A program made the position numbers and the translations under genes. A DNA stretch of 64,000 bases from Acidobacteriota bacterium. Lineage in GTDB: Bacteria > Acidobacteriota > Blastocatellia > UBA7656. The DNA lies in NCBI GenBank assembly GCA_016201275.1, contig JACQDB010000030.1:1-64000 (forward strand), given 5' to 3'. Every line of letters starts with the position of its first letter. Position 1 is the first letter of the stretch. Shown here one piece after another: positions 39,551 through 55,965 of the stretch. The notes under the pieces are model-generated. The model was not told the DNA's origin, ran no database searches, and saw nothing but the letters and a program-made list of their open reading frames with translations.

Positions 39551-40582
39551 TTATTTCACGACCAGAGAATGTTCACCGCGCTCCACGACGCGCCCGATGA
39601 GGGCGGCGTCTTGATAAGTTTGGCGCAGGCGTTCGAGCATCTGGTCGGCGCGGTCTGCGGCGATGACAATCAACAAGCCGCCAGCCGTTTGCGGGTCGAA
39701 CAAGACGCGGCGCATCTCTTCGCTCACCGCCTCGTTGAGGAAAACATCTTCGCCAACATATTCGCGGTTGGTTTTGTTGCCGCTGGTTATTAAGCCTTGC
39801 GCCGCTAGTTCCAGCGCTCCCGGTAAAATGGGCAAAGTTGCTGCATCAATTTCGATGGTCACACGGCTGGCTTTCGCCAATTCCCAGGCGTGACCTAACA
39901 AGGCAAAGCCGGTCACATCGGTTGCGCCGCGCACCTTGAATTCGCGCATCAATTCAGCGGCTTGCTTACCGGCAGTCAACATCGTGGCGAGGGAGGCAGC
40001 GGCAATTTCTTCACTGGTTTTGCCAAACTTGATGCCGGTGGAAATGATACCTGTGCCTAAAGCCTTAGTTAAAATAATGGCATCGCCCGGACGTGCGCCC
40101 GCATTGGTCGCTACTTGATTTGGGTCTATGATGCCGGTGACCGAATAGCCGAACATGATTTGTTCGTTATCCACGCTGTGACCGCCGATCAAGGTGACTT
40201 GGTTTTCCATCAACACGGCAAGGCCGCCGCGCATGATGTCGGTGAGAATGGCATAGTCCACGCCTTTTTTCGGAAAGCAGGTAATCGCCATAGCGGTGAT
40301 CGGTGTGCCGCCCATCGCCCACACATCGTTGATCGAATTGAGCGCCGCTATGCGCCCATAATCGAACGGGTCATCCACAATCGGCGTGAAGAAATCGAGG
40401 GTCTGGACGATGGCGAGGTCGTCACGCAGACGAAAAACGCCTGCATCGTCAGCCGTGTCAAAGCCGACAATCAAATTTTCGTTATGCGGTTGTTGAGGTA
40501 AGCCGCTCAAAACTTGAGCGAGCATATTAGGCGCAAGCTTCGCCGCTCAACCGGCGCACGATACCATTTCTGTTAATCGCAT
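39551..40582 (-). CDS. selD: Selenide, water dikinase; selenocysteine-containing (in-frame TGA)
   Basis: 344 codons including the recoded one. SelD makes selenophosphate from selenide and ATP for selenoproteins and seleno-tRNA. An obvious frame starts at an internal ATG (40525), but that lacks the catalytic N-terminus. Upstream, GGGAGG seven bases before an ATG at 40582 opens [27 protein letters not shown]. The TGA (40547-40549) sits exactly where SelD has its catalytic Cys or Sec. Later motifs: [76 protein letters not shown] and [11 protein letters not shown]. selA, selB and selC are not in this window. Confidence 0.92.
40515..40549 (-). promoter_or_regulatory. Possible bacterial SECIS hairpin after the selD TGA
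   Basis: The minus strand from the TGA folds as an outer stem TGAGCG / CGCTCA (40549-40544 with about 40520-40515) around an inner hairpin GGCG-AAGCTTG-CGCC. Its position immediately 3' of the recoded codon is where a SelB-binding element should lie. Hand fold only. Confidence 0.5.
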
Positions 40583-40652
40583 TTCTGTCCTCCCTCAGAT
40601 TTTTTTCGTCGCAAATTTAAGCGAACCCACGAATGATTATAGCCATCCGCTA

Positions 40653-42099: not shown

Positions 42100-42208
42100 G
42101 TGGATGAAATAATCTGCAACCCTGTACGGGCGACTCTGCGGTGGTCGCCCGTACCAGGCCTGGGAAAATCTCTCAAGTTTTGCAGGTTATTTCATCCACA
42201 ATCCTTAT
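42100..42208. mobile_element. MITE between hpnA and hpnG
   Basis: GGATTGTGGATGAAATAA at 42103 and its reverse complement TTATTTCATCCACAATCC ending near 42204 are perfect terminal repeats, flanked by TTA direct repeats (a target duplication of three). An inner hairpin GTACGGGCGAC / GTCGCCCGTAC fills the centre. The same terminus is found at 11877. The three-base TTA duplication would fit an IS5-group parent (inference). Confidence 0.8.
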
Positions 42209-43197
42209 CAATCAACGTAGCCGTGCGCTTGGAACCAGACGATGGCGCGCTGTAGCGCGTCTTCAATAGGGTTTTGCGGCAAACCCAGTTCGCGCACCGC
42301 CTTTGACGAATCGAACCACATCTTGTGGCGCGCCATGCGGACGCTTTCCAGCGGCGCAAACGGTTCGCGTTGACGCAGCCGTATTGACCAGAAATTTTCC
42401 ATCCGCGCATAGCTTTCGGCAACCCACTGCGGCACACTGAAGGTCGGCGATTTAATGCCGGTGAGATTGGACAACGCATCAAAGATTTCTTTGAGCGTCA
42501 GATTGCGATGTCCCAGAATATATTTCTCGCCGATGGTGCCGCGCTCTGCCGCCAGTATATGACCTTCGGCGCAATCCTTCACGTCTATCAAATTCATTCC
42601 TGTCTCCACGAAGCCGAACATTTTGCCGCGCAGAAAATCCACGATAATTTTTCCGGTCGGCGTAGGCTTGAGGTCAAGTTCGCCGACCGGCGTTGACGGA
42701 TTGACGATGACGACCGGCAGGCCACGGGCGATCCAGTTTTCAACTTCGCGCTCGGCCAGAAACTTGCTGCGTTTGTAGTGACCGATCATATCGTCAATGG
42801 TGACGGGCGTTTTTTCATCAGCCGGAGTGCCGTCACGGTGCAAACCGAGCGCTCCTACCGTGCTGGTATAAACTACGCGCTCGACTCCCTCATCCCAGGC
42901 CGCCTGCATTAGGTTGCGCGTGCCGTCAACATTGGCGGCGTACAACTCCTGCGGGTCTTTGGCATAGAGACGATAATCGGCGGCGCAATGATAGACCGTT
43001 TGACAATCTTTCATGGCCACGCGCAGCGACTCGGCGGCGCGCAAATCACCATAGACAATTTCGATGGGCAAATCTTTGAGGTTATCAAAACGACTGCGGC
43101 GGCGCGCCAGACAACGCACCGTCGCGCCGCGTTCGAGCAGACCGCGCACCAGATGCGAGCCAACAAAACCGGTGCCGCCGGTGACCAGAACATTCAT
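42208..43197 (-). CDS. hpnA: Hopanoid-associated sugar epimerase HpnA
   Basis: 329 aa from the ATG at 43197; the longer frame (to 43335) adds repeat-derived residues. Extended SDR fold: NAD motif TGGTGFVGSHLVRGLL (residues 6-21), a CAADYRLYAKDPQELYAANV segment (about 75-95), catalytic Tyr-Lys in HYKRSKFLAEREV (about 140) and VNPSTPVGELDLKPTPTGK. This last stretch is characteristic of the HpnA/dihydroflavonol-reductase-like hopanoid epimerases. HpnA is linked by context to hopanoid side-chain formation; its exact reaction is not established. There is no SD; the leader is pyrimidine-rich. Confidence 0.9.
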   Translation of the reverse strand: MNVLVTGGTGFVGSHLVRGLLERGATVRCLARRRSRFDNLKDLPIEIVYGDLRAAESLRVAMKDCQTVYHCAADYRLYAKDPQELYAANVDGTRNLMQAAWDEGVERVVYTSTVGALGLHRDGTPADEKTPVTIDDMIGHYKRSKFLAEREVENWIARGLPVVIVNPSTPVGELDLKPTPTGKIIVDFLRGKMFGFVETGMNLIDVKDCAEGHILAAERGTIGEKYILGHRNLTLKEIFDALSNLTGIKSPTFSVPQWVAESYARMENFWSIRLRQREPFAPLESVRMARHKMWFDSSKAVRELGLPQNPIEDALQRAIVWFQAHGYVD

Positions 43198-43615
43198 AAG
43201 CTGAAAAGGAAAAGGCAAAAAGGAAAAAGGAAAAGGTAAAAGACGCGACCGACCGTGCCGCAATCTATTTCCTGTTGACGCAAAATTTTTGCTTCCATAC
43301 GTGGCGCGCTTTGCCCATCGAGGTCGCCCGTACAAGCATTCGCAAACTGATTTCGGCTAACCAATTTCATTTTCTCATTCTGCCTGATGACCAGCACCGC
43401 CGCACTGATTGCGGCAACGCTCGGGGTTGATCGCGCAGGGCTTCCCAAGCATCGGCATCAAGCGTGAAACTGGTTTCATTCAACTATCCGATTACTCGTG
43501 TGGCCGCAAAAATTTTCACCGAGATTGTATCTCGAAGGCTTCCACAACAGCGCCTTGCGCTTGAAGGCGAGACGCCAGGTCGCTCTGCACTTTGCGCCGC
43601 TGCTCATCCTCGCCT
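43198..43615. other. Gap between hpnA and the dehydrogenase, with a purine-rich repeat
   Basis: 43200-43240 is an array of AAAAGGAAAAAGG units (pyrimidine-rich on the hpnA strand), of the same kind as 51205-51258. The remaining 370 bases show no convincing gene. This break could separate the hpnA-hpnG pair from the upstream hopanoid genes. Confidence 0.5.
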
Positions 43616-44644
43616 TTATCCGATGCGTAAAACTTTCGCACCGCGAATCTTGCGGGTCTTGAGTTCAACGAGCGCCCGATTGGCATCCGCCAGCGCAAAC
43701 TCTTCGACGGCGGGTTTGATGTGCATAGCAGCAGCGAGTTGCAAAAACTCCTGCACATCGCTACGACAGACATTGGCGACGCTCTTGATCTCTTTTTCCA
43801 TCCACAGGTGCGACGGATAATCTAAATGGTCGAGCGCCGCTTTGTCTAACGCTTCTTTGCGAATCGCGTTGATGACCAGCCTGCCGCCCGGCGCAAGATT
43901 TCGCAAAGCCTCAACTACAGGCCGCCACACCGGCGTCGTGTCTATGACCGCATGAAGTTTTTCCGGCGCGGTATCGGTCGTATCACCAGCCCAGACGGCT
44001 CCTAATTCTTTCGCAAATTCGCGCTCTTCGGGATTGCGCGCAAACACAAAAATTTGCGAATGCGGCAAAGTATGCTTCGCCATTTTCACGACCAGATGCG
44101 CCGCGCCACCAAAACCCGTCAGCCCCAAATTCTGTCCGTCCTCTATATTCGCCAGTCGTAAAGAGCGATAGCCAATGGCTCCTGCACACAACAGCGGCGC
44201 GGCTTCGGCATCCGCAAAGACTTCCGGGATTGCATAAGCGAAGGCTTCTTGAACCGCCATCTGTTCAGCGTAACCGCCATTGGCATCTCTGCCGGTGGCG
44301 CGAAAATCGGCGCATAAATTTTCTTCACCGGACAGGCAGTAGGCACAGTTGCCGCACGCTGAAAAAATCCAGGCGACGCCGACGCGCTCGCCTATGGCAA
44401 AGCGCTGTGCATTCGCGCCTCTGGCCATCACTCGCCCGACGACTTGATGGCCGAGGATAACCGGCAACTGCGGCGGCGGCGTGCGACCTTCGATTTCATC
44501 AAGCTCGGTGTGACAGACGCCACAGGCGGAAACCTGGATGACGATTTCATGAGCTTTCGCCAGCGGCGCGGGCAGGTCTTCCAGGTGCAGAGGCGCGGGT
44601 TGCTGGCGCAGCTCGGCAAGGTTGTGTAACACCATAGCTTTCAT
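43616..44644 (-). CDS. Zinc-dependent alcohol dehydrogenase (MDR family)
   Basis: 342 aa from the ATG at 44644, which overlaps the kinase stop by ATGA. Medium-chain dehydrogenase: catalytic zinc site CGVCHTELDEIEG (Cys near 36) and GHQVVGRVMARG, structural zinc cysteines CGNCAYCLSGEENLC (about 95-109), Rossmann turn LGLTGFGGAAHLVVKMA, and a C-terminal ADANRALVELKTRKIRGAKVL. It oxidises an alcohol or reduces an aldehyde with NAD(P); the substrate is not known. Coupled translation with a kinase inside a hopanoid locus is unusual. A hopanoid-alcohol or aldehyde substrate is only a hypothesis. Confidence 0.9.
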   Translation of the reverse strand: MKAMVLHNLAELRQQPAPLHLEDLPAPLAKAHEIVIQVSACGVCHTELDEIEGRTPPPQLPVILGHQVVGRVMARGANAQRFAIGERVGVAWIFSACGNCAYCLSGEENLCADFRATGRDANGGYAEQMAVQEAFAYAIPEVFADAEAAPLLCAGAIGYRSLRLANIEDGQNLGLTGFGGAAHLVVKMAKHTLPHSQIFVFARNPEEREFAKELGAVWAGDTTDTAPEKLHAVIDTTPVWRPVVEALRNLAPGGRLVINAIRKEALDKAALDHLDYPSHLWMEKEIKSVANVCRSDVQEFLQLAAAMHIKPAVEEFALADANRALVELKTRKIRGAKVLRIG

Positions 44645-46077
44645 GTTCCGGCGCTCCGTTGCATAGCCTTTCCGGGTCTTTGCAGAATCTTTTGCCGAAT
44701 CGCTTTGATACCGAACAGCGAGGCGATGGCGAGCGACACGACGAGTACATTGTAATAAAACAGAATGCCAGCGAAAGGCTCTTGCGCCTGACGCGGCGTC
44801 CATTTATTGACGATGGCCAGAAAGGTACACAAGAGGCAAACCGGAAAGACGGACAGCCCCAGAAACGCGCCTCTGAGCAAGCCGCAGCGGATGCCGTAAA
44901 TCGTCGTCGTCAAGCCGATGACGATCAGCACCAGGCCGTTAATCGGTATCGGTTCGACATCTATCAAAGCGATCAGAAAGGTGAGCATCGTCGTGATCAT
45001 TTGTATCCATACGAAGACCGTCAGAACCGTCAGGTGACGGAACCGGCGTTTGTTTTCAAACGGGATGACGGGCGGATAAACCGGCGCTACGACTCGTGGC
45101 ATTTGCTGATTGGGCGGTACGAGGGTGGGGATTTGTTGATTGGGCGGCGTGCCGCTTTGGCGCTGTTCATCAGTTGTCAAGCGGCGGTTTCGTTCATCGG
45201 TTGCCCAGCGTCTGTCGGGTTGGGTCTCCAGCGCAAGTTGTCTATTAGGCAAAGGGGTGTGCAAAACTTGGCTGTCCTGCTTGAGAGCAAACAACAAAGC
45301 GGCGCGCATTTCCGCCGCAGATTTGAACCGCAGCGCGGGATTTTTTTCCAGCGTCCGCGCAATGACGGCTTGCAGATGATTGGACACCACGAGCGGCAGC
45401 GGTTCCGGCGGGCGGCTCAGAATCGCGCCCATCAATGAGGTGAGGTCTTTTTGCGGAAACGGCAAACGTCCGGCAATCATTTGATAAAAGATGACACCCG
45501 CCGCCCACAGGTCGGTCTGTTCGTTGCGCTTGCCATCAAAGGCTTCCGGTGCCATGTAAGCTGTCGTTCCGGCAATGGTGACGCTCTGGCTAGTGGTCTT
45601 CAATACCCGCGAGATACCGAAATCGGCGATGCGCGGCGTCTGCCCCTGCAACAACAGGTTGGACGGTTTGAGGTCGCGGTGAATGATGTGCTGCGTATGC
45701 AGATGCTCAAGGCCATCAAGTATGCCGAGCATCATGCGTATGGCCGCATCCATCGAAGGTGCAGCGCCGCCGTGTTGTTTCAACCAATCCTGCAACGAGC
45801 CATCCGAAGCGTACTCGCTGGCGATCACGATATGGTCGTCGTAGATATTGGCTTCAATAATCGGGATGATGTTGGGATGACCGCTGGCTTGCGCCCAGAG
45901 CGCCGCTTCCTGTTTGATTTCTTCGAGGTCTATTTCATCATCGAGTGGAATTTTGAGCGCGACACGGGTGGTCGCCAGTGCAGTGCGCTTTTCCGCCAGC
46001 CACACCACGCCAAACGAACCGCGCCCGATTTTGTTGGTGAGAATGTAGGGACCTATCTGTTCTCCGGGTCGTAGCAT
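44641..46077 (-). CDS. Membrane Ser/Thr protein kinase (Hanks type)
   Basis: 478 aa from the ATG at 46077 (AAGGGGG five bases upstream; a TTG at 46095 is an alternative). N-terminal kinase: P-loop IGRGSFGVVWLAEKR (about 17-30), catalytic Lys in VALKIPL (about 42), HRDLKPSNLLL (about 138-148), DFGISRVL and APEAFDGK (about 180). A Pro/Gln-rich linker (about 275-345) leads to four C-terminal membrane helices (for example ILFYYNVLVVSLAIASLFG). There is no extracellular sensor domain, so it probably senses at or in the membrane. It lies between hpnH and a dehydrogenase and shares an ATGA overlap with the latter. Confidence 0.9.
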   Translation of the reverse strand: MLRPGEQIGPYILTNKIGRGSFGVVWLAEKRTALATTRVALKIPLDDEIDLEEIKQEAALWAQASGHPNIIPIIEANIYDDHIVIASEYASDGSLQDWLKQHGGAAPSMDAAIRMMLGILDGLEHLHTQHIIHRDLKPSNLLLQGQTPRIADFGISRVLKTTSQSVTIAGTTAYMAPEAFDGKRNEQTDLWAAGVIFYQMIAGRLPFPQKDLTSLMGAILSRPPEPLPLVVSNHLQAVIARTLEKNPALRFKSAAEMRAALLFALKQDSQVLHTPLPNRQLALETQPDRRWATDERNRRLTTDEQRQSGTPPNQQIPTLVPPNQQMPRVVAPVYPPVIPFENKRRFRHLTVLTVFVWIQMITTMLTFLIALIDVEPIPINGLVLIVIGLTTTIYGIRCGLLRGAFLGLSVFPVCLLCTFLAIVNKWTPRQAQEPFAGILFYYNVLVVSLAIASLFGIKAIRQKILQRPGKAMQRSAGT

Positions 46078-46136
46078 AGGAACCCCCTTTACCAAGGTGT
46101 TCGCGATGGCTTGATTAAAACGGAATTCTCAGCGGA

Positions 46137-47138
46137 TTACAAACCCATGTTCCAAGCCGCCATACGCAGCAAATCTTTCGGACTCTTCTTCAACTCGAAC
46201 ATGGCCGACGCTTCAAAGCCGCTGTGCATCATGCAGTTCTGGCACAACCTGTCCTGCCGCGATTCCCAATATGCCCAGTCCACTTTGTTCCAGAACTCTT
46301 GCCAGTTGTCGTAATACTCTTTGCCGATTAAATAGCAGGGGCCTTTCCAGCCGTTCGGGGTATAGGTCACGGTACTCCACGGCGAACACTGGTAATCGCG
46401 CATCCCTGCAGTAAATTCCAAGTACATGGGCGTGGACATCAAGCGATATTTTTTCGACAGTTCCAGCACCCGCTGGAACTTGATTTGAATCTCCTGCTTG
46501 GACAGAAAAATATCATGCTCGACGGTTTCGTAATGATAGCCCGGCGCAATCATCAAACCATCCACGCCCAATCCGGCGACCAATTCGCAGAGGTCTTCAA
46601 TCTCCTGCATCGCCGTCTCTTTGAACACCGTGGTATTCGTGGTGACGTGATAGCCGAGGCGCTTGGCTTCTTTAATCATCTCTATGGCTTTGTCGAAAAC
46701 GCCTTCGCGGTCGCAGACCAGATCGTGCGTGTGCTTCATGCCATCGAGATGCACGTTGAGGGTCAGGCGTTTATGCGGCGCGACCTTGCCGAAGATGCGC
46801 GAATCCAGCAACAGCGCGTTGGTGCAAAGATAGATGTGGCGCTGACGTTCGATGATGGCTTCAATCAGTTCTTTGATTTCGGGATAGATAGTCGGCTCGC
46901 CGCCGCACAAAGAGACAATCGGAGCCTGCGTTTCTTCGACCGCCTGAATACATTTTTCGAGTGCCAAGCGGTCTTCGATTTTGCCGGTGTGGCGTTCCAG
47001 CGCACAGCCTATGCAAGCGAGATTGCAGGTGTAAAGCGGCTCCAGCATCAACACCATAGGATAGCGTTTGTTGCCTTTCCTGGCGTTGCGAATTTGATGT
47101 TTGATAGCGTCTGTGGTGATATGAACGGGAAATCGCAT
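46137..47138 (-). CDS. hpnH: Adenosyl-hopane transferase HpnH (radical SAM)
   Basis: 333 aa. Radical SAM enzyme that attaches a 5'-deoxyadenosyl group from SAM to hopene (diploptene), starting C35 hopanoid synthesis. Seen: the N-terminal family sequence PVHITTDAIKHQIRNARKGNKRYP, the cluster motif CNLACIGC (about 38-45; CX3CX2C), SLCGGEPTIYPEI (SAM-binding GGEP), and PWSTVTYTPNGWKGPCYLIG, with further Cys residues in LCQNCMMHSGFEASAMF. All are characteristic of HpnH. Cytoplasmic, 70 bases after the Rpn-like gene and 60 before the kinase, same strand. Confidence 0.96.
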   Translation of the reverse strand: MRFPVHITTDAIKHQIRNARKGNKRYPMVLMLEPLYTCNLACIGCALERHTGKIEDRLALEKCIQAVEETQAPIVSLCGGEPTIYPEIKELIEAIIERQRHIYLCTNALLLDSRIFGKVAPHKRLTLNVHLDGMKHTHDLVCDREGVFDKAIEMIKEAKRLGYHVTTNTTVFKETAMQEIEDLCELVAGLGVDGLMIAPGYHYETVEHDIFLSKQEIQIKFQRVLELSKKYRLMSTPMYLEFTAGMRDYQCSPWSTVTYTPNGWKGPCYLIGKEYYDNWQEFWNKVDWAYWESRQDRLCQNCMMHSGFEASAMFELKKSPKDLLRMAAWNMGL

Positions 47139-47208
47139 GGTGATCGTACCTTCTTAATAAAATCGTTACTGGCATAGCGGCTCTGTCATAGTCCGCCAAG
47201 TCGTTTCG

Positions 47209-48099
47209 TCAGTGCGCGAGATTTTGCCGGTTGAGCCATTCACGCAGATCGGCTTTGGTTTTGAAGTTCAGCAGAGCGGTGCCCAAGGCTTCGATTTGCG
47301 TTCGCGATAAAGTCTCAATTTGTTGCTTCACTCTGGCGCTCAGTTTGCCGACCTGCTGGGCAAGCTGTCTAGCGACCAAATCGCGCTCGCCTTCCAGTTG
47401 TCCTTTCTTGAAGCCTTGTTGCTCCCCTTCTTTGAGGATTGCCTGATAAACCGATGATTCTCTCATAAGTCCCTCCTGAAAAATATTTCTTACCATTTCG
47501 TTATCAAAACGTAAACCGGCTATGACCTGCGCCCAACCGGAGACATTGCGACGCAGAGCCAGCGGCTCTATGGCGTTGATCTTTTCAGCCAGCGCTTCCA
47601 GCAGGGCCGCTGGCGCTGCCGTGCGGCACAAGGTCGCCAACGGCAGAGACGCTTCGTGCTGCATAAATTCCTGTGGGTCTTGCTCCCACATCTTCACCAG
47701 ATGAAATTTGTGCCGCGTCTGGTCGCAAACAAATTCATCACGCACGACGACTTTCGTCTGTTTCAGCAAAACCACAAATTGGCGGCTCGCTTTGCCATAT
47801 TTGCGAAACAGGCGCACCCAATAATCCAGCATACGAAATTCAATCGGCGGTGCGCTTTTCGGGTCGGTCTGAAACTCCAAGTGCAACAGCTCATCGCCCG
47901 TGTCGAGCAAAATCACCGAATCGGCATGAATCGGCGGACTCATCAATTCGGTCTTCAAGACTCTGGCTTTGGTCACCGCACGCCCCAGAAACAGCGACGC
48001 AAACAGTTCGGGATTCCGCTCGGCAAGATACTTGCACAAATTATCGGTGCCCGCTCGACTGCGTGTTTTGCTATTTGCTGTGCTGTGCGTGTCGCTCAC
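47209..48099 (-). CDS. Rpn-like PD-(D/E)XK nuclease-family protein with DUF4351
   Basis: 296 aa. N-terminal Rpn/YhgA-like domain: ILLDTGDELLHLEFQTDP carries an Asp/Glu-x-Gln variant of the restriction-type catalytic core (about 65-82), then RMLDYWVRLFRKYG. A basic helical linker (KEGEQQGFKKGQLEGERDLV) precedes a C-terminal DUF4351-like helical hairpin (LSRTQIEALGTALLNF...LREWLNRQNL). Such genes are abundant in cyanobacteria and acidobacteria and behave like mobile nuclease genes (family knowledge). It sits seven bases after shc, inside the hopanoid run, probably as a guest. Confidence 0.85.
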   Translation of the reverse strand: MSDTHSTANSKTRSRAGTDNLCKYLAERNPELFASLFLGRAVTKARVLKTELMSPPIHADSVILLDTGDELLHLEFQTDPKSAPPIEFRMLDYWVRLFRKYGKASRQFVVLLKQTKVVVRDEFVCDQTRHKFHLVKMWEQDPQEFMQHEASLPLATLCRTAAPAALLEALAEKINAIEPLALRRNVSGWAQVIAGLRFDNEMVRNIFQEGLMRESSVYQAILKEGEQQGFKKGQLEGERDLVARQLAQQVGKLSARVKQQIETLSRTQIEALGTALLNFKTKADLREWLNRQNLAH

Positions 48100-48106
48100 C
48101 TTCGCG

Positions 48107-50032
48107 CTACTCCAAATCGAACATACGCTGCGCGAACAAGCCCAGAGCCAGCAAGGGAAAATAGACAGCGTACAAATGATAGCGAAGATAAAAGACTTTC
48201 GGAAAGCCTGTGCCGGTCCAGCCTTCGTCTATCCATGAGCCGTCTTCGCGTTGCGTCGCCAGCAAATACTCGATGCCACGGTCAACGCTCTGACTGACAT
48301 CCTGGGTTGCCATCAAGCCCATCACCGCCCAGGCCGTTTGTGAAGCCGTGCTGATGCCCTGCCCTTTGGTTGTCGCATCGTCGTAACTGCGCGGCGATTC
48401 GCCCCAGCCGCCATCCTCGTTCTGCACCGAACGCAACCAGCAGCCCGCCGATTGATAACGCGCTTCCATCATGTCTTCGCCTATGCACTTCAAACCGTGC
48501 AAGGCCAGCCACGTCCCGTAAATGTAATTGCAGCCCCAGCGCCCGAACCAAGTGAAATCGCGCTCCTGCTCTTTCAACAAAAAACTCATGGCTTTTTCCA
48601 CCACCGGATGCTTCATCTCAAGACCCAAACCGGCAAAAGTTTCCAGGCCGCGCCCGGTGATGTCTGCGGTGCTGGGATCAATCATCGCATTGTGGTCGGC
48701 AAAGGGAATCTGCGTCAGAAATTGTTCGTCGCAATCTTTATCGAACGACCCCCAGCCGCCATCTTTGTTCTGCATGGTCAAGATCCAGTTGAGGGCGCGT
48801 TGCATGGCCTCGCGTTTGCGCCGTTCGTCCGGCTCGCTGGGAAAGCGCACCTTGCTCAAGGCCGTCAACACTTGAAAAGTATCGTCAACGTCCGGGTAAA
48901 ATTCGTTGGCATATTCAAAATACCAGCCGCCGGGTTCGCCTTCTGGGTTCTTCACTTTCCAATCGCCGACCTCTTTGACCTCTTTGCTCAAAATCCATTC
49001 GGCGGCTTTCAACAGGCGCGGATGATGATTGGGCATACCCGATTCCACCAAGGCATTGATGGCCAGCGCCGTGTCCCAGACCGGCGAAAAACACGGCGCG
49101 ATTTTTAAGGTGTCGCCGTCTTCAATCTCCAGCCGTTCCAGCTCGCGGATTTGCGAAGCCGTCAACGGATGGTCGTTGTCATACCCCAAACAACGCAGCG
49201 CAATGATCGAATTGATGATCGGCGGAAAGATCGCGCCAATGCCGTCGCTCTTGGCAAAATGCTCGATCATCCATTGTTCGCAAGCCTTCAAAGCCTTGTC
49301 GCGTTTCGGCGACCACTTGCGTTTCTCCAACTGTTTCAAAGTCAGGTCGGTGGTGTGGAAAAAGCGTTTCCAAAAACTGAGATTCAATTCATTCGCCGGT
49401 CTGGCACCGGCTATGCGTAATTCAGCAATATCGGCATAAGGCGGCACCGGGCAAAACGGTTTATGCGCCCACATCACCGCCAGCGGCACCACGATGCCGC
49501 GTGTCCAGGCCGACATTTCCGACAGATTGACCGGCGACCATTTCGGCAACAGAATAATTTCCGGCGGCACTGCAGGGCAACGCTCCCAAGGGTATTGCCC
49601 GAAAATCGCCAGATAAATGCGCGTAAAACTGTTGGTCGCATCCAGCCCACCCAAATTCAAAATCACTTCGCGGGCTTTCTTCATGTGCGCGGCTTCGGCA
49701 TCATCGCCCAACAGTTTCAAGACGAAATAGGCTTTCGCAGAGGCGCTGACATCGGGCGGCCCACCTTGATAAATCGCCCAGCCGCCATCAGGCAGTTGCT
49801 GTTGGCGCAGGTAATTGGCGGCCATATGAACGCGTCCGCTATCGCCGCGCCCGATGTAATACATGGTCAGGATATATTCGGATTCCAATATGGTGTCGCC
49901 TTCCAATTCGCCGCGCCAATGACCATCCGCATATTGAATCCGCAAGAGGTGCTGCTGTGCCGCAGCAATGGCGTGGCGTACTTTGGCGTGCAGAGGAGAG
50001 AGAACGATTTGCGCTTGACCAGGTTTTGACAT
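48107..50032 (-). CDS. shc: Squalene-hopene cyclase
   Basis: 641 aa from the ATG at 50032, where GAGG lies nine bases upstream; ATG 50041 touches the RBS. Cyclises squalene to hopene/hopanol at the inner membrane. Seen: the N-terminal QW-like segment HLLRIQYADGHWRGELEGD, PDGGWAIYQGGPPDVSASAKAY, the protonating DVDDT in NEFYPDVDDTFQVL (about 380), and QW repeats QNKDGGWGSFDKD, QNEDGGWGESPRSYDD and QREDGSWIDEGW near the end. Length is a little below E. coli-type annotated cyclases (about 650-720 aa). ispH lies 110 bases upstream. Confidence 0.97.
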   Translation of the reverse strand: MSKPGQAQIVLSPLHAKVRHAIAAAQQHLLRIQYADGHWRGELEGDTILESEYILTMYYIGRGDSGRVHMAANYLRQQQLPDGGWAIYQGGPPDVSASAKAYFVLKLLGDDAEAAHMKKAREVILNLGGLDATNSFTRIYLAIFGQYPWERCPAVPPEIILLPKWSPVNLSEMSAWTRGIVVPLAVMWAHKPFCPVPPYADIAELRIAGARPANELNLSFWKRFFHTTDLTLKQLEKRKWSPKRDKALKACEQWMIEHFAKSDGIGAIFPPIINSIIALRCLGYDNDHPLTASQIRELERLEIEDGDTLKIAPCFSPVWDTALAINALVESGMPNHHPRLLKAAEWILSKEVKEVGDWKVKNPEGEPGGWYFEYANEFYPDVDDTFQVLTALSKVRFPSEPDERRKREAMQRALNWILTMQNKDGGWGSFDKDCDEQFLTQIPFADHNAMIDPSTADITGRGLETFAGLGLEMKHPVVEKAMSFLLKEQERDFTWFGRWGCNYIYGTWLALHGLKCIGEDMMEARYQSAGCWLRSVQNEDGGWGESPRSYDDATTKGQGISTASQTAWAVMGLMATQDVSQSVDRGIEYLLATQREDGSWIDEGWTGTGFPKVFYLRYHLYAVYFPLLALGLFAQRMFDLE

Positions 50033-50141
50033 AAAGGACATCCTCAAAAAAGTACCGCTTGAAACATATAGTTGAGACGATTTTCGCGCCCCCCTGAAAA
50101 AGCGTGGGCGGTGTTTTGGATCAGATAGTCGCCGTTGAATA

Positions 50142-51089
50142 TCAACTGGCGCTCAATTTCACCACCGGTTGAAGCAATTCCGGTGGCAGAGCAAAATGGA
50201 CATTTTCATCTTCGCCGGGTTGTTCGACAAATTCGCTTGCCCCTAGCTCGCGCAATTTTTCCAACACCCGTTTGACCAATTCTTCAGGTGCCGAAGCCCC
50301 TGCCGTGACGCCGACGACTTCGGCATCGGCAAGCCATTCGCTGTGAATCTGGGTGTCATCGTCTATCAAATAAGCAGGCACGCCAGCGACTTTCGACACT
50401 TCGCGCAAACGCTGCGAGTTGGAACTATTTTGTGAACCGACGACCAACAATACATCCACCTGTTGGCTCATCTCTTTGACGGCATTCTGGCGATTCTGCG
50501 TGGCGTAGCAAATATCATCTTTCGGCGGCGATTTCAAATTGGGAAATTTTTTCTTCAAAGCGTCGCTGATTTCCGCCACATCGTCCATGCTCAAGGTTGT
50601 CTGGGTAATGCAAACGACATTATCAGGATTTTCGACGGTTAAATTTTCCACATCCGCTACGGTGCTGACCAAGTGCATAGGCGCTTCGCCCATCGTGCCT
50701 TCGACCTCTTCGTGTCCCGGATGCCCGATTAAGACGATGGATTTTTTCTCCCGCGCATAGCGCACCGCTTCCAGATGCACTTTGGTCACCAGCGGACAGG
50801 TGGCATCTATGACTTGCAGATTTTTTCGAGCGGCGACCTCATGAATATACGGCGAAACGCCATGCGCGCTGAACACACAGACGTTGTGATCCGGTACTTC
50901 TTCGAGGCTGTTGACGAAAATGACGCCGCGTTTGCTGAGGGTTTCAACGACATATTGATTGTGGACAATTTCGTGAAAGACATAGATGGGTTCAGGAAAC
51001 CAGTCTATGGCTCGCTCGACAATATCAATCGCACGCACGACTCCGGCACAAAAACCACGCGGTTTCGCCAGCACCACTTTTTTAATCAT
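50142..51089 (-). CDS. ispH: 4-hydroxy-3-methylbut-2-enyl diphosphate reductase
   Basis: 315 aa. Fe-S enzyme of the MEP pathway that converts HMBPP to IPP and DMAPP, the precursors of squalene. Seen: GFCAGVVRAI (Cys near 13), FHEIVHNQYVV (substrate His), CPLVTKVHLEA (Cys near 97), IGHPGHEEVEGTMGEAP, ITQTTLS, CYATQNRQNAV (third Cys near 194) and VVGSQNSSNSQRLREV. All three cluster cysteines are present. Its placement between hpnI and shc links isoprenoid supply with hopanoid synthesis. Cytoplasmic. Confidence 0.97.
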   Translation of the reverse strand: MIKKVVLAKPRGFCAGVVRAIDIVERAIDWFPEPIYVFHEIVHNQYVVETLSKRGVIFVNSLEEVPDHNVCVFSAHGVSPYIHEVAARKNLQVIDATCPLVTKVHLEAVRYAREKKSIVLIGHPGHEEVEGTMGEAPMHLVSTVADVENLTVENPDNVVCITQTTLSMDDVAEISDALKKKFPNLKSPPKDDICYATQNRQNAVKEMSQQVDVLLVVGSQNSSNSQRLREVSKVAGVPAYLIDDDTQIHSEWLADAEVVGVTAGASAPEELVKRVLEKLRELGASEFVEQPGEDENVHFALPPELLQPVVKLSAS

Positions 51090-51189
51090 CAGTAAAAATC
51101 CTCTACATCAAAAATTCCACCAACTTTATCGAAAACGAAGCCCGAATTACAAATTGAATTATAGCGACGGGCTGAAGCTTCCTCAACGC

Positions 51190-51362
51190 GCCCCCTTTAG
51201 GAGTGTAGGAGAAAGGGAGTAGGGGAGTAAGGGCGTGGGGGCGTAAGGGCGTGGAGAGATTTTTTATCAGTCGAAAAATTCTCCATCGCATCTTCTCCCT
51301 GTCTCCTTGTCTCCCCTTCTCCCTTTCTCCCTTTCTCCCCTACTTCCCCACTCCCCACTCCG
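51190..51362. repeat. Purine/pyrimidine inverted repeat array
   Basis: GAGAAAGGGAGTAGGGGAGT (from 51210) and GGGCGTGGGGGCGTAAGGGC give one arm; CTCCCTGTCTCCTTGTCTCC and CTTCTCCCTTTCTCCCTTTC (51296-51345) give the other, ending at the hpnI stop. The last codons of hpnI (TEWGVGK) are contributed by the repeat. Fills the gap between hpnI and ispH. Confidence 0.6.
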
Positions 51363-52512
51363 TCATCCGTCCGTCGCGCTGCACTTCAAAGATTCGTCCG
51401 CGCCATTCGACGCGCTTGCCCACCATGCTTAAACACCAGATGGCAAAGCTTAACAGATCACGCAATGGCAACAACCAGAAATATTTTTTCAAGAGCTTGT
51501 CCTGCATCCACTGCACGCCGATCATCCAAGCCGTCAACAAGCGTATGACCAGCGTTGCGGCCAATAAAATCAGGCTTTTTGGCGTGAAGCCATCCACTAC
51601 ACCCAGCAACAGCGCGAGCGCCGTGCCATAGGTAAGCAGCAACCCCAGATACCCTGCCGGACGTGAAATTCTGGTCGAACGCCCCCAACGCAATTGATGG
51701 CGCAGCATCCCGCTAAACCCTGCGGGCGACATCGCCGTTTCGACGATGTGTTCCGATAAACGAACTTCATACCCGGCCTCGGCGATCAAATTGCCGAGCA
51801 TAAAATCGTCGGCCAGATAATCGGCCAGCGCTTCCAATCCGCCAATCTCCTGCAAGTGCGTTTTGGTAGTCGCCATGGTGGAGCCGAGCGCAAACTTTAC
51901 GCCTTCCAACATACGCGCCATCAACACCCCTGCCGTAAATTCGCCGGTGATGCCGATGGCTTCCAACAACGCCGCGACATCGGGCGGCTCTGTAGCGCGA
52001 TACAAACAAGTCACCAGCCCGACTCGCGCTTCACCAAGCGGCGCGGTCACGCGCCGCAGATAATCTGTTTGGACACGAATATCGCTGTCAACAATGATGA
52101 TTTGCTCGTGTCTGGTTTGCGCCAAAATATTACGCAGGTTGCTGACTTTGAGATTTGCGCCGATGACCTGTGAAGCAATCACCAATTTGATGTCACGGTC
52201 GGGAAAATCGCTTTGCAATTTTTCGACAATCGGTATCGCCGTGTCGCTGGCTTCCCGCACACCGAACACCAGTTGATAGGCGGCTGGATAATCCTGCCGA
52301 CACAGGCGAGCATAGTTTTCATAGGCATTGAAATCGGCTCCGGCCAACGGAATCAGCAGCGACACCGGTTGCAGAGTGACGGCGGCGCGTTGCGGTTTCG
52401 GGAGAAAGAATCTGGCTCCGGCAAGCAGCGACAACAGATAAAAAACATTGGCCGCAAAGACGCCACAGACCAGAATAATTTTTATGATCAGAAGCAGCAT
52501 GAGTATTCCCAC
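51340..52512 (-). CDS. hpnI: Hopanoid glycosyltransferase HpnI
   Basis: 390 aa from GTG at 52512 (an ATG at 52500 also works). GT2 membrane glycosyltransferase that adds N-acetylglucosamine to bacteriohopanetetrol. Seen: an N-terminal membrane helix (LLLIIKIILVCGVFAANVFYLL), the catalytic DSDIRV (about 130), the ADDFMLGN acceptor motif and the Q/RxxRW-type motif in LRHQLRWGRSTR, then three C-terminal membrane helices. The family resembles ceramide glucosyltransferases, as HpnI does. Directly after the two SMR-like transporters (6 bases from the stop). The C-terminus runs into a repeat. Confidence 0.92.
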   Translation of the reverse strand: MGILMLLLIIKIILVCGVFAANVFYLLSLLAGARFFLPKPQRAAVTLQPVSLLIPLAGADFNAYENYARLCRQDYPAAYQLVFGVREASDTAIPIVEKLQSDFPDRDIKLVIASQVIGANLKVSNLRNILAQTRHEQIIIVDSDIRVQTDYLRRVTAPLGEARVGLVTCLYRATEPPDVAALLEAIGITGEFTAGVLMARMLEGVKFALGSTMATTKTHLQEIGGLEALADYLADDFMLGNLIAEAGYEVRLSEHIVETAMSPAGFSGMLRHQLRWGRSTRISRPAGYLGLLLTYGTALALLLGVVDGFTPKSLILLAATLVIRLLTAWMIGVQWMQDKLLKKYFWLLPLRDLLSFAIWCLSMVGKRVEWRGRIFEVQRDGRMTEWGVGK

Positions 52513-52518
52513 AGCACC

Positions 52519-52896
52519 TTATTCCGGCAACGAAATCAATGCCACCCCTAGGCCAACCAGCAAGGTGCCAAGCAAACGCTCGCGGCTGATTTTCTCGCGC
52601 AAAAAAACTTTCGCCGCAAAGGTCTTGAGAACAAATCCCAGCGCCGTGGCTGGCACCACCAGACTCAAATCCGCCTCCGACAAAACCACTAGAAAGACAA
52701 AAAAATTCATGCTCATCAGCACAAAGCCGATGAAGAAAAATTTATTGCTCAACACCCGCCAGCCAATCTTGACCAACTCCCGAATCCGCAGCGTCGAGAT
52801 TTCGCCAATCTGCCGCATCCCTTTGGCAATACAAATTTCGCCTATGGCATTGGTCAAAACGATGATGATGATAAGCGTAGCGATGTGCAGATTCAT
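52519..52896 (-). CDS. SMR/EamA-like 4-TM transporter, second of a pair
   Basis: 125 aa with four predicted membrane helices (starts NLHIATLIIIIVLTNAIGEICIA) and a conserved LSEADLSLVVPATALGFVLKTF stretch followed by FLREKISRERLLGTLLVGLGV, the half-EamA/SMR signature. It overlaps its partner gene by ATGA (52893-52896) and is the last gene before hpnI. Paired small SMR proteins such as ArnE/ArnF flip lipid-linked sugars across the inner membrane (family knowledge). Here the natural candidate cargo is glycosylated hopanoid; that is inference. Confidence 0.88.
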   Translation of the reverse strand: MNLHIATLIIIIVLTNAIGEICIAKGMRQIGEISTLRIRELVKIGWRVLSNKFFFIGFVLMSMNFFVFLVVLSEADLSLVVPATALGFVLKTFAAKVFLREKISRERLLGTLLVGLGVALISLPE

Positions 52897-53288
52897 GCTT
52901 CGCCTCCACGGATATCTTCAACCTCCGGCGTTTTAATTTCCGAACGCGACACAAAGGCAACGCCTACGCAGATAATCACTGCGCCCAGCCAGCGCAGCGG
53001 AGAAACCTGTTCGTGCAAAAAATATTTGGCGCAGGCGACATTCAAAACGTAGCCGAACGAAGTCGCTGGCAAGATGAAACTCAAATCCGCCCACGACAAC
53101 GCCGCCGTGTAGAGCGCGAAAAACGCCGCCAGCAAACCAATGCCTAGCCAGATCATGGGGTTTTGCATCCCCTGCAACAACGTCGCCATGAATCCGGCAT
53201 CGTCGAGGTTGTGCATCCCTTTGCTGAGTAAAATATTTCCGGCGACCTGTGCGACGATGGCCAGAATCAACACCACTGCGGTTTTCAT
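52893..53288 (-). CDS. SMR/EamA-like 4-TM transporter, first of a pair
   Basis: 131 aa, four membrane helices (VVLILAIVAQVAGNILLSKGM at the start, LSWADLSFILPATSFGYVLNV at helix 3, YFLHEQVSPLRWLGAVIICVGV at helix 4). It is a diverged paralogue of the next gene, consistent with a heterodimer. It overlaps both hpnK (ATGA at 53285-53288) and its partner, so stoichiometric translation of hpnK, transporter 1 and transporter 2 is likely. The charged tail (SEIKTPEVEDIRGGEA) is cytoplasmic by the positive-inside rule. Confidence 0.88.
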   Translation of the reverse strand: MKTAVVLILAIVAQVAGNILLSKGMHNLDDAGFMATLLQGMQNPMIWLGIGLLAAFFALYTAALSWADLSFILPATSFGYVLNVACAKYFLHEQVSPLRWLGAVIICVGVAFVSRSEIKTPEVEDIRGGEA

Positions 53289-54151
53289 ACGAGCGTATCC
53301 AATCCAAAATAGTTGATGAGTTGGAAGCGCGCATCTTGAGCGCGTTCCTGCACCTGCTGGTTTATCAAAGCCTCGAATTCTATCATCAATTGTTTCTCCT
53401 CCGCGTTCAAAACGCGACCTGTCGCGTAGAGCGCCGGGTGAAAATAGATTTCGTTGGTGGCGGCGTGCAGGTGTTCGAGGGCGTGTAGAAAATATTTATC
53501 GTTCATCGCGCCGCTCTGCAAATTGCCATAGACGCGCTCGGCAAACACGAAGTCGTGTTTTTTCAAATGACGCTTCATGTACAGCCCCAAAGCGCCAAAC
53601 ATCAATCGGTGTATGCCCTTTCGCAGTTTGAATCTGCCGTCAAATTGCAAAGCGAGATGTAATTCTTCCATAGGCACGCGCATACGTTTCGCGCCGTATT
53701 TCGCGCCCAATTCCAAAGCGGTTTTGAAAATCACCGGATGAATGTGCAGGTGCAGATGCCCGTCAATATGTGATAGTGGCAAGCCGGTTTGATGAAAGCG
53801 CTCGAACTGCGCGGCTAATTCTTTGCGTAGTTCGCGGCGCGCTCGCAATGAAAAAAAGTATTTCATACCGGCGGTGTTCGGGTTGTTCGAGAAATTGCCC
53901 TGGGCGTCAACCAGGGTAGGAATTTCCGCCTGTGGCAAGGCGCTGCGCCCGACCACCGTGACCAGATGAATGCCAACGCCGAGCTTGGGATTTTCTTTCG
54001 CCAACTGCACCGCTTGCTCGAAAGCTGCGCCGGTCACCATCAAACTGCAACTGGTCAACACGCCGTCTTGATGAGCGCGAATGATGGCTTCATTGACCTC
54101 TGCGGAGGCACCGAAGTCATCGGCATTGATAATCACTCGATATGGATTCAT
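53285..54151 (-). CDS. hpnK: Hopanoid N-deacetylase HpnK (YdjC/ChbG-like)
   Basis: 288 aa. YdjC-fold carbohydrate deacetylase that removes acetate from the GlcNAc head of hopanoids, after HpnI (family knowledge). Seen: VIINADDFGASAEVNEAI (metal-binding Asp pair near 12), LGVGIHLVTVVGRSALP with His near 63, and the HIDGHLHLHIHP cluster (about 130). GYFF-type features are replaced by GMKYFFSLRARRELRKEL. Length is normal. ATGA overlaps at both ends (with the 80-aa gene and the first transporter gene) make it the centre of a tightly coupled four-gene block. Confidence 0.93.
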   Translation of the reverse strand: MNPYRVIINADDFGASAEVNEAIIRAHQDGVLTSCSLMVTGAAFEQAVQLAKENPKLGVGIHLVTVVGRSALPQAEIPTLVDAQGNFSNNPNTAGMKYFFSLRARRELRKELAAQFERFHQTGLPLSHIDGHLHLHIHPVIFKTALELGAKYGAKRMRVPMEELHLALQFDGRFKLRKGIHRLMFGALGLYMKRHLKKHDFVFAERVYGNLQSGAMNDKYFLHALEHLHAATNEIYFHPALYATGRVLNAEEKQLMIEFEALINQQVQERAQDARFQLINYFGLDTLV

Positions 54152-54390
54152 GAATTGCGGGATTTGATTGAGGCTTTCGGCGGCAGGACAGGTTTGCAGA
54201 CCACTTCCAATTGGCGTTCAATGCGGTCAAGGCGTTGTTCAATTGAGCCTACTCCGTGATCAAATCGCTTTTCCAATTGGGCAACCAGCTTTCCGGCTGG
54301 CCGTTGATTCGGCCAGGGCGCGCCAAACATAGAGACGACCAGAGCAAGCATAGCAATCGCGGCGGCAATCAGGGCAATACTTGGGATCAT
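54148..54390 (-). CDS. 80-aa single-span membrane protein
   Basis: Starts MIPSIALIAAAIAMLALVVSMFG, one membrane helix, then a charged helical stretch (LVAQLEKRFDHGVGSIEQRL...DRIERQLEVV) that could form a coiled coil, and a Pro/Lys-rich tail. GGAGAG lies six bases before the ATG, and the stop overlaps the hpnK start. It is not a recognised hopanoid gene. Its position between hpnJ and hpnK suggests a scaffold or partner of the hopanoid-modifying enzymes. Confidence 0.75.
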   Translation of the reverse strand: MIPSIALIAAAIAMLALVVSMFGAPWPNQRPAGKLVAQLEKRFDHGVGSIEQRLDRIERQLEVVCKPVLPPKASIKSRNS

Positions 54391-54464
54391 CTTCTCTCTC
54401 CTGTTTCGGAGTTATCGAATGCCATCATTTTCACAAGCTACCGCTATCTTTTTATCTTAAAATT

Positions 54465-54502
54465 TCGGCACTGCTCTTGCGGAAACAAAAGCAGTGCCGA
54501 TG
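54465..54502 (-). terminator. Hairpin after hpnJ
   Basis: On the minus strand TCGGCACTGCT pairs with AGCAGTGCCGA, about 27 bases after the hpnJ stop, followed by AAATTTTAAG. It is a weak candidate terminator. If active, it would separate hpnJ from the hpnK block. Confidence 0.5.
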
Positions 54503-54528
54503 AAAATCGCCATGCAACAAACGCTTGA

Positions 54529-55965
54529 TTAGCGACTCGCTTGCGTTGCCACGAACTGTTTGCGCTTCGAGCGCAGTTGCAAAAATTCCTTCGCCTCTTT
54601 GTACAGGCGTCTGCGTTCGTGACCATTAAACGCCGCTTTGCGAACAATGCGGAAGATGATGCGGGGACGGAAATAATAGCGGTCATAAAAACTCTCGACC
54701 GCCTGCACGATCTCTTCCCGCGACAAGCCCGGATATTGAATCACCGGCAGTTGATGGCCTACGTCGTCAATCATGTTGTCGTAATCCATCAGGTAATTAT
54801 TCTTCTTCACAAAATCATCGAACTCGGTGCCGGGATAAGAATGCCCTATGGAAACCTGTATGGTTTCGCAATCCAGTTTTTCGGCAAACTTCACCGTGCG
54901 TTCGATGGTTTCGTGCGTCTCACCCGGCAAGCCTATGATAAAGTCGCCGTGAACCACGATGCCGAGTTTCTTGCAGTTCTTCATGAACTCGTGAGCCTGC
55001 GCCACGTCCGCGCCTTTCTTGATGTTCTTCAATATCTGATCGTCGCCCGATTCAAAACCGACAATCAACAAACGGCAACCGGCATCGCGCATGGCTTTCA
55101 GGGTTTCGTAATCGGTATGCACACGCGACGTGCAAGACCAGGTTTTCTTCATAGGCTTTAACTTCTCGCACAAATCAATTGTCCGGCGTTTGCCCCAAGC
55201 GAAGGTATCATCGTCAAAGAAAATTTCTTCAAGGTTGGGAAACAATTCCCAGGCGCGTTTGAATTCGGCGGCGACGTTATCCGCACTGCGCGTGCGCCAG
55301 GCGTGACCGCTGATGGTTTGCGGCCACAAACAAAAGGTGCAGAGCGCCGGACAACCGCGCGACGAATAGAACGCGATATACGGGTTCAATAAAAACGGCA
55401 CATTGTATTTGGTGATGTCGAGATCGCGTTTGTAAATATCCACGGCAAACGGCAACCCATCCAGATCGTGCAGCGGGGCGCGCTCAGGGTTATGAATGAT
55501 CTTGCCGTCTTTGCGATAGCTGACATTTTGTATGGTCTCCAGCGGCTGGCCTTCGGTGTATTCTTTGAGCGGAAAATCAATCTCTTTGCGAACAATGAAA
55601 TCAATAGCGTTCGAGGCTTTCAACGCTTGATCGGGTTGCGAGGTGACGGGCGGCCCTACGAAAGCAATCTTCAAATCGGGCTTGGCCTGTTTCATCAACT
55701 CCGCGAGTTTCAAATCATTTTTCCAACCGGGAGTGCTGGTATAGAGGGTGACGAAATCGTACTGCTTGGAAATTTCGATGGTCTCTTCGGGCGTCACGCC
55801 ATGCGGCGGCGCATCCAGCAAGCGGCTGTCTTTGATTAGCCCTGCAGGATAGGTCAACCACACGGGATACCAGAACGAAGCGATTTCCCGCGCCGCCGGC
55901 CAACGCGAACTCGCGCCGCCGTCAAAGTTCGGGAACGAGGGTGGATTGAGAAGCAGTGTTTTCAT
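54529..55965 (-). CDS. hpnJ: Hopanoid-associated radical SAM enzyme HpnJ
   Basis: 478 aa. An N-terminal cobalamin-binding-like domain (about 1-160: FVTLYTSTPGWKNDLKLAEL, IAFVGPPVTSQPDQAL) is followed by a radical SAM core with YSSRGCPALCTFCLWP (CX3CX2C, about 205). Later motifs are FFDDDTFAWGKRR and VGFESGDDQILKNIKKG. HpnJ is proposed to convert the amino-sugar head group to the cyclitol ether of bacteriohopanetetrol cyclitol ether (family knowledge). First gene of the minus-strand hopanoid run; a divergent PhyH gene begins 250 bases away. Confidence 0.93.
   Translation of the reverse strand: MKTLLLNPPSFPNFDGGASSRWPAAREIASFWYPVWLTYPAGLIKDSRLLDAPPHGVTPEETIEISKQYDFVTLYTSTPGWKNDLKLAELMKQAKPDLKIAFVGPPVTSQPDQALKASNAIDFIVRKEIDFPLKEYTEGQPLETIQNVSYRKDGKIIHNPERAPLHDLDGLPFAVDIYKRDLDITKYNVPFLLNPYIAFYSSRGCPALCTFCLWPQTISGHAWRTRSADNVAAEFKRAWELFPNLEEIFFDDDTFAWGKRRTIDLCEKLKPMKKTWSCTSRVHTDYETLKAMRDAGCRLLIVGFESGDDQILKNIKKGADVAQAHEFMKNCKKLGIVVHGDFIIGLPGETHETIERTVKFAEKLDCETIQVSIGHSYPGTEFDDFVKKNNYLMDYDNMIDDVGHQLPVIQYPGLSREEIVQAVESFYDRYYFRPRIIFRIVRKAAFNGHERRRLYKEAKEFLQLRSKRKQFVATQASR

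Follow-up and report, generated by a model that had tools for sequence, protein, structure and literature searches.

Does the selD gene of this acidobacterium begin where a simple gene caller places its start, or does it begin further upstream and run through an in-frame TGA at the codon of its catalytic residue? Here, we address this question for a stretch of 64,000 nucleotides (the window), probably from a soil acidobacterium of the class Blastocatellia, using protein family models, comparison with relatives, RNA folding and a survey of the genome for the selenocysteine (Sec) machinery. The gene almost certainly codes for a selenophosphate synthetase with Sec as catalytic residue 12. Sec-containing SelD is well known and the gene belongs to a known kind; it deserves notice chiefly because the active site is lost in simple gene calling.

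The selD frame on the minus strand is open from the TGA through to the TAA stop, and the TGA stands 11 codons after an ATG with a likely ribosome-binding site (Table 1). Start, TGA and SelD frame are thus as the preliminary description had claimed. It had also claimed that ordinary annotation would begin the gene at 40525 and lose the active site, and the six-frame listing of open reading frames does start the gene at this ATG, giving 324 amino acids from which residue 12 is excluded. With the TGA taken as a residue, the product scores 362.8 bits against the SelD equivalog model TIGR00476 (cut-off 125) and 320.4 bits against NF002098 (cut-off 299), and it contains the AIRS and AIRS_C domains. 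Residue 12 falls on a Cys in both PDB 3u0o (within AGC; query residues 2–333 aligned) and PDB 2yye (within SGC; query residues 3–333), each deposited as selenide, water dikinase, which bears out the earlier claim that the TGA stands at the Cys/Sec site of SelD enzymes; the deposited chains have Cys where the window's SelD has a predicted Sec. 3u0o is the Escherichia coli enzyme and 2yye that of Aquifex aeolicus. The TGA is followed by AAKLAPNML, and in U12-A-A-K15 the U and K columns are both invariant in the seven genomes of the family; UxxK is given as the SelD motif in Table 1 of PMC13188914.

Table 1. Features of the selD locus, in window coordinates.
Feature	Position	Strand	Basis or remark
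selD coding sequence with Sec, 343 residues	39551..40582	-	TAA stop at 39553-39551
GGAGG, likely ribosome-binding site	40589..40593	-	six bases 5' of the ATG, read directly
selD start codon ATG	40580..40582	-	shared by 7/7 family genomes
In-frame TGA, predicted selenocysteine, residue 12	40547..40549	-	TGA/Cys of relatives and structure alignment
Lys15 of the UxxK motif	40538..40540	-	sequence and family alignment
ATG chosen by the ORF caller, not conserved	40523..40525	-	six-frame ORF listing
Predicted bSECIS hairpin	40502..40523	-	covariation, folding, bSECIS model
7-bp core of the hairpin, apical loop GUU	40520-40514 with 40510-40504; loop 40513-40511	-	
U at the base of the core	40521	-	pairs with 40503 or bulges (bulge in the window's own fold)

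Could the TGA be a true stop that ends a leader peptide, the gene being either a pseudogene or a truncated SelD that starts at 40525? The 324-residue call is compatible with this reading, but such a form would be without the catalytic residue, and the conservation around the TGA speaks against it. All seven family genomes have a SelD with one TGA, identical residues 1–11 before it and A-[AS]-K-L after it, whereas the codon at the position of the caller's start is ATG in just one of 86 distinct TGA sequences, namely the window's own. We collected 137 loci, of which three (L104, L111 and L161) had no N-terminal alignment and were dropped; the remaining 134 represent 105 distinct sequences, 94 with TGA and 11 with Cys, and the 94 comprise a main set of 86 and eight genes from families f5 and f7 that were counted apart. 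The preliminary description had held that a random sense codon in close relatives would tell against Sec. At the site, 121 of the 134 loci have TGA and 13 have TGC or TGT, with no sense codon other than Cys among them, and the G-U-x-x-K motif surrounds the TGA in 121/121 cases (several loci being the same record twice). A true stop is most improbable on this evidence, and we retain the reading as Sec.

The alignment of SelD found 47 named loci, 45 of them titled as Acidobacteria(ota), and we assign the window's genome to Blastocatellia as probable on the strength of these titles, which include Blastocatellia, Pyrinomonadaceae and Chloracidobacterium. Two loci fall outside: a 26% partial match from Methanobrevibacter (L111) and L098. 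The latter is titled Akkermansia muciniphila and carries a SelD 64% identical to that of the window, TGA included; it is perhaps a mislabelled metagenome-assembled genome.

Across the class, we sampled 147 genomes. SelD was matched in 128 of them (E ≤ 1e-30), and in 125 the match covers the site (the matches of G041, G111 and G137 fall short of it). One in-frame TGA is present in 113 of these 125 and a Cys codon (TGC/TGT) in the remaining 12, ten of which belong to family f4, the others being G139 and G145. For 77 of the 113 genomes the gene was fetched and read, with the TGA in the motif in each; the other 36 enter as a TGA count only. Could the window's TGA then be a sequencing error for a TGC or TGT codon, given that 12 class genomes have a Cys-SelD and that one of these, G139, sits in a genus with TGA in its other fetched members? 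Against such an error stand the one TGA in 113 of 125 genomes and the hairpin kept alongside it (see below), and the probability that we assign to it is negligible. Sec-SelD is widespread in the class, as follows from the TGA, Cys and tRNA-Sec counts over the 147-genome sample, and Sec and Cys have probably replaced one another in SelD, in one direction or the other, on several occasions (f4, G139, G145).

Sequence evidence also supports well a bacterial SECIS element (bSECIS) downstream of the selD TGA. The preliminary description had claimed a hairpin directly following the TGA; a hairpin there is, but it starts 23 nt past the TGA, so that "directly follows" is inexact, and its loop lies 32–33 nt downstream. 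Counting the U of UGA as 1, positions 29–36 pair with 47–40 around a loop at 37–39. Over the 86 distinct TGA genes of the main set and eight pairs, standard pairing is found in 680 of 688 cells, compared with only 116–339 of 688 if the partner is slid by 1–6 bases; five of the pairs are standard in all 86 genes and the other three in 82, 84 and 84, while the next outer pair, 28–48, is standard in merely 42. A protein tree was made for 84 genes of this set (two shorter than 250 amino acids were omitted); on it, co-occurring changes amount to approximately seven steps for pair 30–46 (C-G, T-A, G-C), four for pair 33–43 (T-A, C-G, T-G) and seven for pair 36–40 (A-T, G-C, G-T), and some of these compensatory changes leave both codons synonymous (CAA/CAG with TTG/CTG). 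The TGA genes have 7.9 of the 8 pairs on average, against a mean of 4.8 after synonymous shuffling; for the 11 Cys genes the values are 5.6 and 4.6.

Taken alone, the hairpin of the window gene is only moderately unusual: its eight pairs are attained by 0.4% of 20,000 synonymous shuffles, and its 27-nt folding energy (−11.5 versus −5.4 ± 2.3 kcal/mol) is matched by 1% of 500 shuffles. Longer-stemmed hairpins exist elsewhere in the window's selD, and hairpins with 7 bp and a 3-nt loop occur elsewhere about 1.3 times per gene in the 86 genes; we therefore place the weight on conservation and not on the single sequence. Folding, a check that had been proposed with the hairpin, gave a divided answer: the hairpin appears when 92 nt around the TGA, or the sequence after the TGA, are folded, but 54 nt from the TGA on adopt a different minimum-energy fold in which the TGA itself is paired and the hairpin is absent.

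For bSECIS elements, PMC13188914 (legend of its Fig. 2) gives a loop of 3–9 nt and a stem of 4–16 bp, and also a G within the first two loop bases, a spacing of 16–37 nt and an energy below −7.5 kcal/mol. Read with a 5-nt loop, the hairpin of the window gene satisfies all of these (32 nt, −8.9 kcal/mol), as do 79 of the 86 TGA genes and one of the 11 distinct Cys genes; with internal codons as a comparison, 295 of 4,229 (7.0%) do so. The eight f5 and f7 genes lie off the main register: five fit the model in another register, and none of the three f5 genes fits it. In the five f7 genes (L164, L166, L168–L170) the loop is about 7 nt nearer the UGA and contains GGUC. Set beside Sec-SelD in general, most of the class has a nearly uniform register, with the loop 31–33 nt past the UGA. 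The upper stem of the E. coli fdhF SECIS is shorter than that of the window hairpin. Two of the Cys genes may be mentioned separately: the TGC gene of G139 (L055) still fits the bSECIS model and may reflect a recent Sec-to-Cys change, and the TGC gene of G145 (L162), near TGA relatives, does not fit it, in a genome without a tRNA-Sec match.

Is the machinery for Sec insertion present? The preliminary description had implied a working Sec system and had named the absence of selA, selB and tRNA-Sec as grounds for rejection. All three are found in the window's genome (6.84 Mb in 162 contigs, 98.7% complete; selD on C76): on C111 a tRNA-Sec whose anticodon is UCA (66 bits against a gathering score of 47), selA on C130 (539.6 bits, cut-off 267.9) and selB on C18 (364 bits, cut-off 242.25), whose product has the two winged-helix domains SelB-wing_2 and SelB-wing_3. 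SelB would bind the downstream hairpin and bring Sec-tRNA to the UGA; once complete, SelD would make selenophosphate with which SelA makes further Sec, and the new Sec would supply SelD and at least three other predicted selenoproteins. Compared with Sec-containing SelD as known from TIGR00476 and UxxK, the window gene shares the full-length match, the TGA at the codon of the catalytic Cys, the Lys three residues on and the Sec genes in the genome, and differs in nothing essential. A second use of SelD in selenouridine formation was considered and rejected: the TIGR03167 match covers just 30 positions with 22.3 bits against a cut-off of 219.75, and no selenouridine synthase lies above the cut-off in this genome. 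The same genome has 19 tRNA genes within approximately 2 kb (L007, C94:5001-8074), resembling the tRNA arrays of phages and mobile elements.

The UGA might instead be read as a residue other than Sec, by near-cognate Trp or by a suppressor, for example a tRNA-Cys of the selC* type, and four of the seven family genomes indeed have a tRNA of Sec shape, or the anticodon arm of one, that bears GCA (Cys). Its anticodon, however, is GCA and not UCA, its exact arm pattern was searched for in the window's genome and is absent there, that genome has UCA tRNA-Sec, SelA and SelB, and 10 of the 11 distinct Cys genes fail the bSECIS model; we consider a non-Sec residue very unlikely and Sec the preferred reading. 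The GCA tRNAs themselves, similar to selC* tRNA-Cys, are L039, L040, L041 and L263 (G002, G003, G004 and G006; L263 by pattern only). Their anticodon arm is one base off that of tRNA-Sec, and the exact pattern occurs in 4/147 class genomes, as in 4/7 of the family. Such selC* tRNAs were reportedly treated by Mukai and colleagues in 2017. A review on selC* tRNA-Cys names, in its available part, other phyla and not Acidobacteria.

A tRNA-Sec match, in a class-wide search with strict filters in which the anticodon was read for part of the matches and the cross-count was made by hand, is present in 110 of the 113 TGA-SelD genomes and in 11 of the 12 Cys-SelD genomes (the exception is G145, 85% complete); among the 19 genomes that lack a SelD match, 10 have one for tRNA-Sec. 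The three TGA-SelD genomes without a match under these filters are G045, G046 and G127 (73–89% complete). Within the family, 7/7 genomes have a tRNA-Sec-family match; the sole match of G005 (L038, on C29) carries the anticodon UCA, yet its fold is poor and ARAGORN does not call it. The expectation that Cys-SelD genomes are without tRNA-Sec is contradicted by these counts. Hence, tRNA-Sec alone is no pointer to Sec in SelD, and where SelD has Cys, it is presumably other genes that make use of the Sec system.

Which other genes would use Sec in the window's genome? A scan with PF00578, PF10262 and TIGR01591 revealed one TGA inside each of three of the 16 listed PF00578 matches (20 counted): a peroxiredoxin-type protein with TPVU (TxxU; L242) and an 8-bp stem 3' of the TGA, a peroxiredoxin-like protein with WUPYC (UxxC; L243), where a stem of at most 5 bp was found, and a ResA-like protein with WASWUGC (WAxxUGC; L244) and a 7-bp stem. 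L244 exceeds the cut-off of the ResA-like WAxxUGC model NF041054 (332.4 versus 300); L242 and L243 exceed that of PF00578 and of no NCBIfam model. At least three further genes thus carry a TGA at a redox Cys site, and on their account a self-serving Sec system with SelD as its sole selenoprotein was rejected. Formate dehydrogenase as an explanation of the Sec system in this genome was likewise rejected, as all 12 TIGR01591 matches are without an internal stop; the relatives G004 and G005 do carry a TGA form among theirs. The scan for SelW (PF10262) found none in the seven family genomes.

Zhang et al, 2006 (PMC1794560) report FdhA or SelD in every selenoproteome and regard these families as keepers of the trait, a place that SelD would fill in the window's genome. 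We tentatively propose, as an idea with the odds against it, that the Sec trait of Blastocatellia is held by a self-amplifying loop and that the SelD bSECIS has kept one register in most families but has moved by about 7 nt in f7. In this loop, Sec-SelD would supply selenophosphate both to the making of SelD itself and to that of antioxidant selenoproteins with a thioredoxin fold, in the window's genome independently of formate dehydrogenase. If so, selenium supply would switch the whole selenoprotein set on or off together, and the f7 move would represent SECIS turnover within an orthologous gene.

Sec occurs in 19% of the SelD genes in the reference set of PMC4561486, in line with the earlier statement that Sec-SelD is known in other bacteria, and the same source describes selenoprotein genes as usually misannotated. 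Acidobacteria are listed with three selenoprotein families and four selenoproteins in PMC1794560, and an Acidobacteriota genome with three selenoproteins in PMC12013277; our literature search pairing selenocysteine with Blastocatellia found no paper. Plain ORF calls would lose the SelD active site wherever the TGA form occurs in the class, and selenium use in the class may therefore be under-annotated. With TGA genes that have a covarying hairpin and Cys genes mostly without it, the class lends itself as a clean, natural set of data on the retention and loss of bacterial SECIS elements.

Finally, the region at 42208-55965 of the window looks from its translations like a hopanoid cluster: presumably squalene-hopene cyclase (48107-50047), an HpnH-like radical SAM protein (46137-47138), IspH (50142-51089) and HpnI/J/K-like genes.
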